Positions 22,697 to 29,002 of a stretch of DNA of 34,560 nucleotides are shown here, one piece after another. The translations under genes and the position numbers were made by a program. The stretch comes from a virus. Position 1 is the stretch's first letter. Each line of letters opens with the position of its first letter. Where the stretch lies: the IMG/VR virus record IMGVR_UViG_3300032293_000111, positions 1-34,560 of that record; one strand, written 5' to 3'. The notes beneath the pieces were generated by a model, which saw only the letters and a program-made list of their open reading frames with translations, was not told the origin of the DNA and did not search any database.

Positions 22697-23446
22697 CTAC
22701 GGTAGGGGGGGAGCATGGTCCCTTTTCAATATGGCATCGATTGCCTGCCTGCGAAATGCACTGATTCTATGCGGCGGCTCTCTGCTTGTGCCTGCTACAG
22801 AGCGAAGGGTAGCCAGTACGATGTCGTCAAGTACAGGCACAGTAACCCCTGCCGCTGCTAACTCAGCAATGACTACCTCATCCTCGGGAGTTGCAATCCT
22901 GCTAAAACCTGCTTGGCGATTGAGAGATATCCATCTTGCGATATATGCTCTTCCAACTAGCTCCTCACCCTTACTCTCACTTGCCGTTACTGCAACATTG
23001 TTAAATGCTTCTTTGTCCTGATTTAACAATTCGATGGTTTCCTTTTCCTTCCAAGCTTGCAAGGTTGGCGGCAAGTCTTCGAACTTGATCGAATCCATCA
23101 GGTTACTATTTGACAATGTTTCATCATAGACAACCCTGATGATCTGCGCTGTCTTGCCGTAGCTATGATTCTTGACTACCTTGAAATAACCTAGCTCTCT
23201 CAAGATTCTTATCTGCCTGCCTGCTGCCTGTCTTGATACGCCGAGGGCTTTGCCTACGTTGGCATGGCTCGGCCAACATAAGCCTGCTCTGTTCGCATAA
23301 CTGCATACTGTTAGCAATACGCGCATTGCCGCTGGTCTTATCCTTCTGTCTGCTGCTGCTCTGATCGGCACAATCGAATACTTCCGCAAATCCTGCGGTC
23401 TATGCTGCTTAATGATCGGTTCATCCGGTAGTTCAAAGCTTTGCAT
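22697..23446 (-). CDS. Winged-helix DNA-binding protein, candidate replication initiator
   Basis: The 249-aa protein has a helix-turn-helix/winged-helix domain at residues about 30-110 (RVLLTVCSYANRAGLCWPSH, then VGKALGVSRQAAGRQIRILR, then ELGYFKVV). This HTH_36-like type is found in phage and plasmid replication initiators and in regulators. The C-terminal half is helical and of no family I know. No helicase or helicase loader is seen nearby. The ATG overlaps the upstream RHH gene by 14 bases. A run of seven C residues lies three codons before its stop. Confidence 0.72.
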   Translation of the reverse strand: MQSFELPDEPIIKQHRPQDLRKYSIVPIRAAADRRIRPAAMRVLLTVCSYANRAGLCWPSHANVGKALGVSRQAAGRQIRILRELGYFKVVKNHSYGKTAQIIRVVYDETLSNSNLMDSIKFEDLPPTLQAWKEKETIELLNQDKEAFNNVAVTASESKGEELVGRAYIARWISLNRQAGFSRIATPEDEVVIAELAAAGVTVPVLDDIVLATLRSVAGTSREPPHRISAFRRQAIDAILKRDHAPPLP

Positions 23447-23615
23447 TAGTTATCATCCTACTAAGTTTGTCTTCAGTACTCTCTCTGCTGCGGTAATATT
23501 CCCGTACTGCCGCTTCAACAATGCTCACCCTTGACCTGCGTTGATCTGCCGCAAGCTTGTCGAGCATTTCCCTAACTTCGGGGCGCAACCTTAATAGAGT
23601 AGCCTTATGTGTCAT
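23433..23615 (-). CDS. Ribbon-helix-helix transcriptional regulator
   Basis: This 60-aa protein (ATLLRLRPEVREMLDKLAAD, then RRSRVSIVEAAVREYYR) has the strand-helix-helix pattern of CopG/Arc-type repressors. It is the first gene of the leftward early transcript, lies next to divergent promoters, and its start codon sits inside one copy of a 10-bp direct repeat. Autoregulation and control of the rightward promoter are therefore likely inferences. Confidence 0.82.
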   Translation of the reverse strand: MTHKATLLRLRPEVREMLDKLAADQRRSRVSIVEAAVREYYRSRESTEDKLSRMITNAKL

Positions 23616-23670
23616 TTGCGGAATCTATCACAATGCAGGCAATGATTAAAATATATTACTTGTCATTTGC
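23610..23670. repeat. Pair of 10-bp direct repeats, candidate operators
   Basis: TGTCATTTGC occurs at 23610-23619 and 23661-23670, 51 bp apart, about five helical turns. The first copy covers the RHH start codon; the second overlaps the -35 of the rightward promoter and the -35 of the leftward promoter. Confidence 0.6.
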
Positions 23671-23673
23671 CAA
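23645..23673 (-). promoter_or_regulatory. Leftward early promoter (sigma70-type)
   Basis: On the minus strand TTGGCA (23668-23673, 5 of 6) and TTTAAT (23645-23650, 5 of 6) are separated by 17 bases. It points at the RHH gene, 30 bases downstream of the -10, and overlaps the rightward promoter. Confidence 0.62.
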
Positions 23674-23687
23674 GCAATGCCTATACT
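23660..23687 (+). promoter_or_regulatory. Rightward early promoter (sigma70-type)
   Basis: TTGTCA (23660-23665, 5 of 6) and TATACT (23682-23687, 5 of 6) are separated by 16 bases. It drives the rightward block beginning at 23736. The -35 shares bases with the second direct repeat. Confidence 0.62.
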
Positions 23688-23735: not shown

Positions 23736-23906
23736 ATGAAAGACTCAACAGCTCTCATCCTCTCATCACTAGTATTTTTCATCCTCACCATCTTCGCTGT
23801 CATCATTTCAGCCCCTGTTAGTGCCTGCGGAATTCTCTGCCTATGTGGTGCTGTATTGATGGGTGGCGGCTTCGTTGCTCTGAATCACGAACAATCGATA
23901 GTCTGA
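23736..23906 (+). CDS. Small membrane protein (56 aa)
   Basis: ATG at 23736 (AAAGGAAA nearby upstream) to TGA at 23906 encodes 56 aa with two hydrophobic stretches, about residues 6-26 (ALILSSLVFFILTIFAVII) and 30-48 (ACGILCLCGAVLMGGGFVAL). It is the first gene of the rightward transcript and is followed 12 bases later by the GP88-like gene. A two-helix inner-membrane protein, possibly a superinfection-exclusion or host-modifying peptide, is an inference. Confidence 0.65.
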   Translation: MKDSTALILSSLVFFILTIFAVIISAPVSACGILCLCGAVLMGGGFVALNHEQSIV

Positions 23907-23918
23907 TCGGGGGAACAA

Positions 23919-24563
23919 ATGAAGATATCTGTTACCTCAAAGCTTGATGGCATCCGTTCTTGGTCTTTGCAGGCCATTGATACCTGTCCCGGCTCTGTTG
24001 CCGCTCCGGGTGAACTTGTCGATGCTTGCAAGGGATGCTATGCAACGACAGGCAATTATCGCTTCGCTAATGTCAAGGCTCCAAGGCTACACAACCAAGA
24101 GGATTGGAAACGGATGACATGGTCGGATGACATGGTGGCCGAGCTATCCAAAGACAGGTTTTTCCGCTGGTTTGATTCAGGCGATATATATACCTTGGCT
24201 CTTGCTGAAAAGATTCTCGAAGTAATGAAGCGGACCCCTTGGTGCAATCATTGGCTACCGACCCGGATGTACAAGTTCCCGAAGTTCAGACAAGTATTGT
24301 CGGAAATGCAAGCATTGAAAAATGTTTCCGTGCGGTTCTCATCCGACAGCGTGACAGGCGACTATACCAAGGGCTTGCACGGCTCAGTGATTATCCCGAC
24401 AGCCGAAGATGTCAAGAAGGGGATGACACTTTGCCAAGCTTATGAAAACGAGGGCAAGTGTAACGGATGCCGAGCCTGCTACGACAAAAAGGTCAAGGTT
24501 ATTGCTTACCCGGCACATGGTAAGAAAATGCACAAAGTAATATCTATCAAGCTAGCTGCTTAA
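23919..24563 (+). CDS. GP88-like cysteine-rich protein
   Basis: This 214-aa protein (GGGGGA ribosome site) has eight cysteines: C23, C37 and C40 in CPGSVAAPGELVDACKGCYA, C109 in RTPWCNHWLPTR, and C172, C181, C184 and C187 in the C-terminal GKCNGCRACYDKK. FFRWFDSGDIYTLALAEKIL and NVSVRFSSDS look like strands and helices of a TIM-barrel. The layout matches phage GP88-type proteins, which I recall as radical-SAM-like in fold, but no canonical CxxxCxxC is present. An iron-sulphur or zinc site is likely; the activity is unknown. Confidence 0.7.
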   Translation: MKISVTSKLDGIRSWSLQAIDTCPGSVAAPGELVDACKGCYATTGNYRFANVKAPRLHNQEDWKRMTWSDDMVAELSKDRFFRWFDSGDIYTLALAEKILEVMKRTPWCNHWLPTRMYKFPKFRQVLSEMQALKNVSVRFSSDSVTGDYTKGLHGSVIIPTAEDVKKGMTLCQAYENEGKCNGCRACYDKKVKVIAYPAHGKKMHKVISIKLAA

Positions 24564-24583
24564 ACCTGAAAGGAAAATGCAAA

Positions 24584-24790
24584 ATGATTATCTTTAATTA
24601 CCCATCCAAAAAAGAACTCAAAGCTTCCATCGGCAAGCCTTTAAAGTACATCGAGACATCGATGTTTGGACCCGAATACAAGCCCGATGGGATGTTAACG
24701 GGTGCCAATAGACCGCACATTACCGGCCAAGGCAGAGAATTCTTTGCCAATGTCATCATGGAAAACGGATTGATAAAAGGGGTCAAATGA
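24584..24790 (+). CDS. Conserved small phage protein
   Basis: The 68-aa protein (FNYPSKKELKASIGKPLKYI, then ETSMFGPEYKPDGMLTGANR, then PHITGQGREFFANVIMENG) is of a type I recognise from several phage genomes, usually close to GP88-like genes, without a known function. AAAGGAAA precedes the start. It is separated from the GP88-like gene by 20 bases and overlaps the next microprotein as ATGA. Confidence 0.75.
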   Translation: MIIFNYPSKKELKASIGKPLKYIETSMFGPEYKPDGMLTGANRPHITGQGREFFANVIMENGLIKGVK

Positions 24791-24867
24791 ACATTCTCGA
24801 AATGATCGGAGGCTTTGTAGCTTTCCTGATAATGTGGGCTTTTCTTTTTGTATTGCTCTCGTTCTAA
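24787..24867 (+). CDS. Single-span membrane microprotein (26 aa)
   Basis: ATG at 24787 overlaps the previous TGA (ATGA) and the frame ends with TAA at 24867. The product, MNILEMIGGFVAFLIMWAFL plus six more residues, is one hydrophobic helix. Stop-start coupling and the position just before a terminator support expression. No family can be assigned at this size. Confidence 0.5.
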   Translation: MNILEMIGGFVAFLIMWAFLFVLLSF

Positions 24868-24901: not shown

Positions 24902-24926
24902 AAGCCGGATGCCCTCCGGCTTTTTT
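24902..24926 (+). terminator. Intrinsic terminator in rightward block
   Basis: AAGCCGGA (24902-24909) pairs with TCCGGCTT (24915-24922) around a 5-base loop and is followed by T residues at 24921-24926. It divides the membrane/GP88-like genes from the recombination genes, which would need read-through or a promoter that I could not identify. Confidence 0.88.
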
Positions 24927-24955: not shown

Positions 24956-25147
24956 ATGCCTGTCTGCCTAGCCAAGCAACCCTCAATCCCTGTATCCCTT
25001 GCCGTAGTTCAGGAAATAAACCCGGACATTACCGAGCAGGACGCATACCAAGTATTGCATTTATTGCATTTATCAGAGCAACAAGGTTACTCAATCAATC
25101 ACTCAATGATTGAACGCATCATCGAACGCGTTATCTTTCCATTTTAA
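24956..25147 (+). CDS. Hypothetical protein upstream of the YqaJ exonuclease
   Basis: This 63-aa protein (SLAVVQEINPDITEQDAYQV, then LHLLHLSEQQGYSINHSMIERI) has AAAGGAAG before its ATG. It is hydrophobic and helical with no transmembrane span. It begins the segment after the terminator and lies 13 bases before the exonuclease gene. No family recognised. Confidence 0.65.
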   Translation: MPVCLAKQPSIPVSLAVVQEINPDITEQDAYQVLHLLHLSEQQGYSINHSMIERIIERVIFPF

Positions 25148-25160
25148 TAAGGGGTCTATC

Positions 25161-26117
25161 ATGGTCGGAAAAGTTACACCCAATACAATGCTCTCGGCTT
25201 CCCGCCTGCCTGCCGTCATGGGATACAGCAAATACAGAAGCCCAAATGACGAGCTACAAGCTGGCATAGAAGCTATAAACGGCATCGATTCAACATCACC
25301 ACAAAATGAAGCAATGCAGTGGGGTGACACGCTCGAGCGAATCATCATTGAAAAAGCAGCAGAGCGATTAGGCGTTACCGATCTGATAACTCATCACCCT
25401 GAACCTCGCTTCCACCCTTTGCTGCCGCTGGCCTGTAGCATAGATGCTGTAGCAAATGGCAACGCAATAGTGGTTTCCAATGACCCCGACAAGGGAATCA
25501 TGGTCATGGACGGCGACATCATGCAGCTAACCGGTGTCGGCATCATCGAAGCCAAGCTAACCTCAGTCGCTCCAGAACATACCCCAGCTTTGTACAGGGG
25601 ACCAATCCAACTACAGGCACAGATGGACATCACAGGCGCTAAATGGGGCGCTCTGGCAGTCCTCTATCGCGGTACAGAGTTACGGATTTTCCTTTTCAAA
25701 CCGCACGAGCCAACCCTTCGGGCCATCGAGAAAGCTACGCTCGACTTTCAACGTAGACTTGACATCTGGAAAGCAGAGAGGCATATTGACTACTATCCAC
25801 CTGTCAACAGTGATGATGCCAACAGAACATGGGGGACTGCCGAAGATGCCACAGTCCACCTAGCAGGTGAGTTCGAAACGTGGGCGCGAGACATCTACGA
25901 AGCCAAGCAGGACATCAAGCAATGCGAAGACATCATAGATGACAGAGAGAAACGTATCAAAGAAGCAATGCAAACAGCTACCAAAGCTGAGATCGGGAAG
26001 TACCAAGTAAGCTGGCCTATGCGCCACTACAAAGCAACAACAGAGCGAGTCATCCCCGCCAAAGAGGGTTACTCCATCAGGCAATCAAGCCTAACCATCA
26101 AGGAGAAAAAACAATGA
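25161..26117 (+). CDS. YqaJ-family viral recombinase/exonuclease
   Basis: I chose the ATG at 25161 (MVGKVTPNTMLSASRLPAVM) with AAGGGG upstream; a frame extension to 25110 would overlap the previous gene. The 318-aa protein has SASRLPAVMGYSKY (12-25), WGDTLE (54-59), D95 in CSIDAVA, E130 and K132 in GIIEAKLTS and PIQLQAQMD (148-156). These are the PD-(D/E)XK motifs of lambda-exonuclease-like YqaJ proteins. It resects double-stranded ends 5' to 3' to load the RecT-like partner encoded next. A C-terminal helical segment (about 240-285) is charged. Confidence 0.92.
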   Translation: MVGKVTPNTMLSASRLPAVMGYSKYRSPNDELQAGIEAINGIDSTSPQNEAMQWGDTLERIIIEKAAERLGVTDLITHHPEPRFHPLLPLACSIDAVANGNAIVVSNDPDKGIMVMDGDIMQLTGVGIIEAKLTSVAPEHTPALYRGPIQLQAQMDITGAKWGALAVLYRGTELRIFLFKPHEPTLRAIEKATLDFQRRLDIWKAERHIDYYPPVNSDDANRTWGTAEDATVHLAGEFETWARDIYEAKQDIKQCEDIIDDREKRIKEAMQTATKAEIGKYQVSWPMRHYKATTERVIPAKEGYSIRQSSLTIKEKKQ

Positions 26118-27136
26118 GCAATGTGACAGTCAGAAACGGATTCCTGCCGACAACATTTTCCGAAGCCAAGACCTTCGCAGGCGAACTAGCAGCATCCAAC
26201 CTAGTCCCCAAAGCCTATGCAGGTAAGCCACTGGATATCCTAGTCGCTATCCAATGGGGCAACGAGATTGGACTTGCACCCATGCAGGCTTTGCAAAACA
26301 TCAGCGTCATCAACGGCAAGCCATCAGTCTACGGTGACGCAGCAATGGCACTGGTGCAGGCACACCCAGCCTGTGAGGGCGTAGAAGAGTTCTTTGAGGG
26401 CGAAGGTACACCAAACCCTGTCGCCGTCTGTATCGCCCACAGAAGGGGCCGTAAGCCCGTCACAGCTAAGTTCTCAGTCGAGGACGCAAAGAGGGCAGGA
26501 CTGTGGAATAAACAAGGTCCTTGGACATCCTACCCAAAGAGAATGTTGCAAATGAGAGCCAGAGGTTTTGCTTTGAGGGATGCTTTCCCCGATGCACTGA
26601 AAGGACTCATCACCACAGAGGAAGCAGATGACTACCCAGCAGAAGCCAAGCAAGAAGCAAAAGACATCACGCCTAAGAATCCATTGGATGCTATCGCTTC
26701 GCCTGAAGTAATAGAACCTTCCTATCAGGAAGCCGCTGTAGAAGTGGTCGATGGTACAGTTACCGTTGAAGCAGAGGTAGTAGAAGTCGTCGCAGAACCA
26801 GAGGAACCAGAAACTTCTGGGGGTGGATGGCTTTTGTACACACCTCGCAAAGACCCGCAGGAACTATCGTCATTGGAAGAGTGGCTCAAAGAGTACAACG
26901 CGCTGGCAGACAAGACCGCTGGCGCAGGCAGGGCGGCACCCAGAGCAAGGATGACAGCCCTGCGTGAACTGCGAGAAGCCAACGATCCAACGATCAAGCG
27001 AACACCCACGCTAGTCAAGGTGGTGCTAACGCAAGGCCACCAGACCAGACTGGCTTGGCTAGGCCACCAGATGCGGGAAGAGGAAGGCAAATCTGACAAC
27101 GTGAAGGAAGATCATGGACCACAACGTCAAACTTGA
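26114..27136 (+). CDS. recT: RecT-family single-strand annealing protein
   Basis: The 340-aa protein has the RecT core: KTFAGELAASNLVPKAYAGK, then DILVAIQWGNEIGLAPMQAL, QNISVINGKPSVYGDAAMAL, FSVEDAKRAGLWNKQGPWTS and YPKRMLQMRARGFALRDAFP. It anneals complementary strands after resection by the exonuclease. The C-terminal 130 residues are acidic and then basic and fall outside the core. The ATG overlaps the exonuclease TGA, so the pair is translated together. Confidence 0.94.
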   Translation: MSNVTVRNGFLPTTFSEAKTFAGELAASNLVPKAYAGKPLDILVAIQWGNEIGLAPMQALQNISVINGKPSVYGDAAMALVQAHPACEGVEEFFEGEGTPNPVAVCIAHRRGRKPVTAKFSVEDAKRAGLWNKQGPWTSYPKRMLQMRARGFALRDAFPDALKGLITTEEADDYPAEAKQEAKDITPKNPLDAIASPEVIEPSYQEAAVEVVDGTVTVEAEVVEVVAEPEEPETSGGGWLLYTPRKDPQELSSLEEWLKEYNALADKTAGAGRAAPRARMTALRELREANDPTIKRTPTLVKVVLTQGHQTRLAWLGHQMREEEGKSDNVKEDHGPQRQT

Positions 27137-28582: not shown

Positions 28583-29002
28583 ATGCGCCCCATCTATGAG
28601 ACAGAGGCAGACCTAAAGCGAGAGAAAGAAGTGCAAGAAGCTTTGTACCTCATGTGGGAAGTGGACTTTCACAAGCTGCCTCGTGCCTACCATGTGGACT
28701 GGATGCTGACAAAGAAAGGACAAGCCAAAGGATTTGCTGAACTCAAGTGCCGAAACAATCCTCGCCGTCAGTATCCTACCTTGATGCTATCAATGCACAA
28801 ATGGATGCACGGCAAGGCAATGGCACAAGAGATTGGTGGCAAGTTCATTGTCATCGTCCGGTGGAGCGACGGTATCTTCTACCACAAGCAAGGCTGGTGC
28901 GATGTTACCTACGGCGTAGGCGGCAGGAAAGATAGAGGGGACAGTCAGGATATAGAACCAGTGGTCCATATCCCGACTGACTACTTCAGACGCGCTACTT
29001 AG
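28583..29002 (+). CDS. Predicted PD-(D/E)XK-type nuclease
   Basis: The 139-aa protein has D39 in YHVDWML followed 14 residues later by E53 and K55 in GFAELKCR, the D...ExK core of PD-(D/E)XK nucleases. MHKWMHGKAMAQEIGGKFIV follows as the helix and strand after the core. It is the last gene of the rightward block and its TAG overlaps the convergent Rz stop. Substrate unknown. Confidence 0.68.
   Translation: MRPIYETEADLKREKEVQEALYLMWEVDFHKLPRAYHVDWMLTKKGQAKGFAELKCRNNPRRQYPTLMLSMHKWMHGKAMAQEIGGKFIVIVRWSDGIFYHKQGWCDVTYGVGGRKDRGDSQDIEPVVHIPTDYFRRAT

Follow-up and report, generated by a model that had tools for sequence, protein, structure and literature searches.

Several families and enzymes resemble the central protein of the phage cassette described here. 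The cassette lies in a virus record of IMG/VR that is 34,560 bases long; this record is the whole stretch of DNA analysed and is called the window below, and positions in the cassette are those of the whole stretch. Its 214-aa protein, GP88, is a member of PF17338 (GP88, Gene product 88) with 109.3 bits against a gathering cut-off of 24.4. The same family has another branch, GP88b, with a Cx7Cx3C site and without the four-cysteine site that the window protein possesses. PF23872 (DUF7227) is like GP88 in having a three-cysteine site, an RxxxxGD motif and a four-cysteine site, and in being a neighbour of the small protein p68, although it differs in its Cx3Cx6-7C spacing and is only about 20% identical. 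PF07505 (DUF5131, phage Gp37/Gp68-like) has the pattern Cx6CxxCY in 11/11 sequences taken. GP88 scores 10.7 bits against it (cut-off 28.9) and 7.9% in hhalign, and its predicted structure matches a Gp37/Gp68-like viral fold model at E 4e-4. Among radical SAM enzymes the nearest is QueE (7-carboxy-7-deazaguanine synthase), which is like GP88 in predicted fold, minimal size and an N-terminal three-cysteine site (Cx14CxxC in the solved QueE 4njg, close to Cx13CxxC in GP88). GP88 differs from it by an extra four-cysteine site, by having no match to PF04055 and by the absence of any sequence relationship found. p68 belongs to phrog_37117, where no function is known. Another phage-borne radical SAM module, accompanied by a DUF483 protein, has been described from Thermus phages (PMC11437467). 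Open-access literature yielded no study on PF17338, on GP88 as a phage domain, on DUF7227, on DUF5131 or on the GP88-p68 pair.

Layout of the cassette

The features of the region are as follows.

23433-23615, minus strand: divergent ribbon-helix-helix (CopG/Arc-like) protein of 60 aa (Pfam and PHROG)
23605-23619 and 23656-23670, plus strand: 15-nt direct repeat, two copies 87% alike, the second overlapping the -35 box
23660-23687, plus strand: sigma-70-like promoter, TTGTCA-16-TATACT (promoter scan; conserved -10)
23736-23906, plus strand: tm56, hydrophobic protein of 56 aa (ORF; two likely membrane spans, by eye)
23919-24563, plus strand: GP88, PF17338 protein of 214 aa (ORF; Pfam, alignment, predicted fold)
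24584-24790, plus strand: p68, protein of 68 aa, phrog_37117 (ORF; PHROG match)
24787-24867, plus strand: tm26, hydrophobic peptide of 26 aa (one likely membrane span, by eye)
24902-24922, with a U-run to about 24927, plus strand: intrinsic terminator stem-loop (8-bp stem, -12.5 kcal/mol, z -2.8)
24956-26117 (to the RecT end at 27136), plus strand: next unit, beyond the cassette, with a 63-aa protein, a YqaJ-type exonuclease and RecT (ORFs, Pfam, PHROG)
25161-26117, plus strand: YqaJ-type exonuclease (Pfam/PHROG)
26114-27136, plus strand: RecT (Pfam/PHROG)

This arrangement is best explained as a small rightward transcription unit bounded by the divergent ribbon-helix-helix repressor gene on one side and by the intrinsic terminator on the other. 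The 60-aa protein matches PF01402 (20.8 bits, cut-off 20.5) and the Arc-like repressor family phrog_3431 (E 6e-5), and it is likely to be the repressor of the rightward promoter, with the 15-nt direct repeat as its possible operator. It is the first gene on the divergent side, which also encodes a replication-initiator-like HTH protein. The promoter named in the original prediction was found at its place and its -10 box, TATACT or TATAAT, is kept at the aligned place in 14/19 sequences, although the scan match by itself is no better than chance (12 sites found in the region against 14.7 expected). The terminator predicted at 24902 was confirmed, and it closes the cassette separately; one terminator scan missed it, probably because the stem enters the T tract. 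Judged from its position, the cassette would be expressed early.

Each of the four ORFs is preceded by a plausible Shine-Dalgarno sequence (GGGGG for GP88, by eye), and the start of tm26 overlaps the stop of p68. Since synonymous change per site far exceeds non-synonymous change in all four, with dN/dS against the closest relatives of ~0.03 for GP88, ~0.02 for p68, ~0.02-0.09 for tm26 and ~0.1-0.34 for tm56, all of them, including the 26-aa tm26, are real genes under purifying selection at the places given by the original prediction. Rfam and tRNA searches of the window gave no match, and NCBIfam gave no real match to the window proteins, TrbA at 18 bits against a cut-off of 164 being noise. 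Within the recombination region, a putative phage PDDEXK endonuclease (PF24579, 149 bits) is encoded at 28583-29002.

GP88, its relatives and its predicted fold

GP88 has eight cysteines. Seven of them, C23/C37/C40 and C172/C181/C184/C187, are invariant in 82 aligned sequences, and the eighth, C109, is variable (C in 34/82). Five (C23, C40, C172, C184 and C187) remain invariant in an eight-sequence alignment that reaches down to 19-20% identity and includes DUF7227 proteins. Their conservation supports two clusters compatible with metal binding, much as originally proposed, except that C172 had been missed and the invariant cysteines number seven, not six. The spacing of the first site is Cx13CxxC in the window protein and Cx12-13CxxC throughout the GP88a branch (33/33), compared with Cx3Cx6-7C in DUF7227 (9/9 sequences). 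The R-x4-G-D motif that follows this site is present in 33/33 GP88a and 9/9 DUF7227 sequences, and the four-cysteine site in 32/33 and 9/9, respectively. In the third branch, GP88b, which Pfam places in PF17338, all seven sequences taken have Cx7Cx3C and none has the four-cysteine site (0/7); the counterpart of RxxxxGD there is R-L-N-x-x-S-D, the pattern being found in 4/7 and the remaining three having RLNTISD. Profile comparison indicates that GP88 and DUF7227 share ancestry: hhalign aligns GP88a with PF23872 at 96.9% (E 1.9e-10, 195 columns), and the window GP88 itself matches PF23872 with 39.2 bits (cut-off 27). The relation of GP88a to GP88b is weaker in hhalign (46%, E 2e-4). DUF7227 was not found in 96 genomes of one class.

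An AlphaFold model of GP88, built with 33 window and locus sequences, has a pLDDT of 83.0 and a pTM of 0.83, the cluster loop being its least certain part (pLDDT 62-63). Foldseek against the PDB returns nothing at E<0.001, and the top-ranking entry is a radical SAM enzyme, BlsE (E 0.15). When 999 Foldseek candidates are aligned by VIA-align, radical SAM enzymes take all of the first 13 rows (Z 4.8-6.1), among them QueE, SuiB, LAM (lysine aminomutase), BtrN, EpeE, GDGT-MAS and SkfB. The best match is QueE 5tgs with Z 6.1, rmsd 4.1 and 140 aligned residues. Counted by hand, radical SAM enzymes make up 25/50 rows, a few of which we take to be such enzymes. Because a Z under 8 may reflect merely a common arrangement, here the barrel, matches at Z ~6 support a radical SAM fold for GP88 and do not prove it. 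The 18 matches at E<0.001 to viral structure models include GP88, DUF7227 and one Gp37/Gp68-like protein.

PF04055 (Radical_SAM) gives no row for GP88 at E<=1, the canonical CxxxCxxC is absent, a PDB profile search finds nothing related, and hhalign with a QueE profile of only two sequences finds no match. With PF04055 and the sequence searches negative, the radical SAM reading comes from the fold and the cysteine pattern only, and with neither the PF04055 match nor CxxxCxxC, GP88 is described here as working like a radical SAM enzyme and is not filed as a superfamily member. The same negative match and the modest Z, together with weak Fer4-type matches confined to the region around residues 176-189 (E 0.047-0.5), leave some room for a TIM-like protein that holds Fe-S or zinc and has no radical SAM chemistry, e.g. 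a factor that serves early replication or repair through redox activity or by binding nucleic acids. We regard this as a minority possibility, since the top fold matches are radical SAM enzymes and include no ferredoxins, and the three-cysteine site is invariant with a spacing near the QueE type.

p68 and the exchange of genes around GP88

p68 matches phrog_37117 at E 4.9e-25. An alignment of 34 sequences from different phages has 27/68 invariant columns, with 71-87% identity to the p68 of the window, whereas the enzymes beside it diverge to ~20% identity. Its model is a compact alpha/beta domain (pLDDT 93.7) with a conserved block in the middle of the protein, in which respects p68 appears unlike a RiPP leader-core peptide. 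No chain is found above Z 2.5 in a fold search of 253 PDB chains, no Pfam match is better than E 0.23, and no real PDB-sequence match is found.

Scanning IMG/VR with p68 gave 162 related stretches, of which 80 were kept, and the 43/80 with contigs of at least 8 kb were searched for enzymes. PF17338 is found above the cut-off in 22 of these records and PF23872 in 7 others (29/43), and three weak matches raise the number to 32. All 32 enzyme matches are on the strand of p68 and 27 are within 1 kb, on either side of it. Among 43 random contigs of 8-75 kb, PF17338 is found in 2/43 and PF23872 in 0/43; this control consists of 43 of 80 listed records (five above 75 kb, the shorter ones and 31 more being left out) and is unmatched for habitat and host. 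The difference between 29/43 and 2/43 of these unmatched records is significant (Fisher 6e-10), and it persists after similar loci are clustered by single linkage with thresholds of 70% identity and 40% coverage of the shorter locus (16/26 clusters, p 3e-7). p68 itself is present in 0/43 random viral records, a search that detected 3/3 positive controls. It occurs beside all three superfamily branches, GP88a, GP88b and DUF7227, in phages of unrelated backbone, and in Pelagibacter phage Greip the GP88-type gene and p68 are adjacent (gp26-gp27). The pairing of GP88 or DUF7227 with p68 is real as a genomic association.

There is no GP88-type match in 11/43 p68 records, and among seven phage-collection p68 records (of 16 found), PF17338 is above the cut-off in two, weak in one and lacking in 4/7. 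Conversely, most GP88 loci are without p68: it is present in 9/76 evaluable ones, the window included, by a motif search in which the p68-bearing loci L092, L093 and L135 were not scored as carriers. Its distribution on a quick GP88 tree, which has very long branches for L092, L114, L124 and L138, needs 7 changes, 3 of them forced by well supported branches, a pattern that we count in favour of the enzyme-partner reading. In the pooled loci p68 is the commonest neighbour family (46/127), a count biased by the part of the loci that were fetched via p68. A search of 18 GP88-bearing bacterial genomes found no p68, a negative of little weight, as the search was run without a positive control.

Further proteins occur close to p68. 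In 8/80 p68 loci (L109 110-723 and seven others) a family of 204 aa lies directly upstream of it; this family could be another p68-using enzyme, and an idea formed by eye that it is a DNA glycosylase was dropped, as Pfam gives no match. In Tunturiibacter phage Tunturi_1 (L170 4645-5337), a CDS at 55983-56675 of that phage's record annotated as 'DNA methyltransferase' covers a PF17338 match at 56085-56627, ~0.5 kb downstream of p68; this annotation may be wrong, or it may hint that the protein uses SAM. In Pseudomonas phage Kremar (L168 1284-2744), which has no PF17338 match, p68 follows a DndB-like protein (PF14072, 110 bits) by a few genes.

The other genes of the cassette are kept less well. 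The original prediction regarded the four as one module, and a fixed set of four does not hold up: among 83 other GP88 loci (80 from IMG/VR and 3 from a phage collection; tblastn E<0.01), tm56 is present in 10/83, p68 in 8/83, tm26 in 4/83 and all four in 2/83. Co-occurrence, on which that prediction had staked itself together with a fold bearing clustered cysteines, is strong for p68 with the GP88 superfamily and is not found for the membrane peptides. A terminator-like hairpin lies 3' of GP88 in 17 of the 18 window-group sequences, at a distance from the start of GP88 that ranges from 665 to 1009 bases; the hairpin of L006 is of another kind, and L021 lacks one. The slot between GP88 and the terminator is empty or contains tm26 alone, p68 with tm26, or ORFs of 82, 85, 93 or 99 aa, and the slot upstream of GP88 is likewise variable. 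Since the small genes change and GP88 and the terminator are constant, the cassette amounts to a delimited slot that GP88 occupies together with small genes open to exchange, and tm56 and tm26 are best explained as exchangeable local accessories on a shared transcript.

An acidic 82-aa protein fills the p68/tm26 slot in L012 and L018 (668-917 from the GP88 start), and a 93-aa protein does so in L014, L019 and L020 (668-950); both may be alternative partners of GP88. Scanning 101 neighbour proteins for function, out of 150 listed representatives from 332, gave DNA methylases (2) and a single DUF932, DUF2958, helicase, primase etc., with no clear functional theme among the 101. Neither GP88 nor p68 was found in a plasmid search. 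A GP88 relative in an Acidobacteriota assembly (L336 5797-6573) is, by eye, surrounded by mobilisation- and integrase-like genes, and from these neighbours the GP88 family may also be carried by non-phage elements.

Two loci differ in the enzyme beside the same p68. Upstream of the enzyme, the DNAs of L094 and L105 share 85% identity across almost 2 kb; they share 87% from base 2899, which lies at the enzyme 3' end, through p68. Between these flanks no DNA match exists, and the enzyme body is GP88a in L094 and DUF7227 in L105. L103 and L160 show the same pattern against L094 at 75-80% identity. One enzyme branch has replaced the other beside the same p68, and this swap is the best evidence that the enzyme branches are equivalent in function and that p68 takes part in that function.

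The exchange also bears on a plainer explanation, in which the region is an ordinary hot spot for phage accessory genes, with GP88 standing alone and p68, tm56, tm26 and the remaining small genes gained and lost independently of it. Variable slots on both sides of GP88 in the window group and the many GP88 loci lacking p68 would fit it. Against it stand the occurrence of p68 beside three superfamily branches far above the random control, its retention when the enzyme is replaced, and its first rank, in a biased count, among the neighbour families, and we hold this explanation to be possible and somewhat doubtful. Much the least probable is a single module of tm56, GP88, p68 and tm26 that serves host take-over or superinfection exclusion through membrane effectors: the four genes do span up to one shared terminator, and small hydrophobic proteins are common exclusion factors, but tm56 and tm26 are not kept with GP88, PADLOC-DB (defence-system library) HMMs gave 0 families for the 5 proteins tested, and no observation here ties the cassette to host take-over.

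Proposed mechanism and its meaning

We propose, at about even odds, that the cassette produces an early-expressed, radical-SAM-like Fe-S enzyme that has p68 as its partner or substrate. GP88 would be a divergent enzyme of this kind, built as a partial TIM barrel. C23/C37/C40, located in the loop behind its first core strand, would be the ligands of a [4Fe-4S] cluster that binds SAM. Contact with SAM would also be made by the invariant R83-x4-G88-D89, which follows the next core strand, and an auxiliary cluster would sit on C172/C181/C184/C187. p68 would be a dedicated compact partner, which either is the substrate or presents it. The likeliest chemistry would be the modification of a protein by a radical mechanism in early infection, since those of the nearest folds that have auxiliary clusters belong to peptide- or protein-modifying enzymes, which SuiB, SkfB, EpeE and anSME are. 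A protein target is a guess, prompted by these folds and by the presence of a small dedicated partner.

A broader and more tentative proposal, to which we give well below an even chance, is that GP88 and DUF7227 constitute one phage family of very small enzymes of radical SAM type, lying beyond the superfamily as it is now recognised, and form with p68 a two-part modification system, the enzyme branch being exchangeable and p68 being the fixed, target-facing part. In such a system, p68 might bind one conserved host or phage molecule for modification, or might itself be modified and thereby activated.

The set was originally put forward as a good lead for something undescribed, and the present results support this. 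Proteins of PF17338 and DUF7227 are found in phages of several unrelated hosts and are without an assigned function in the libraries used. The radical-SAM-like reading gives them a concrete test and makes p68 a candidate partner or substrate, and the L094/L105 swap offers a ready case, made by nature, for asking which component determines the target.
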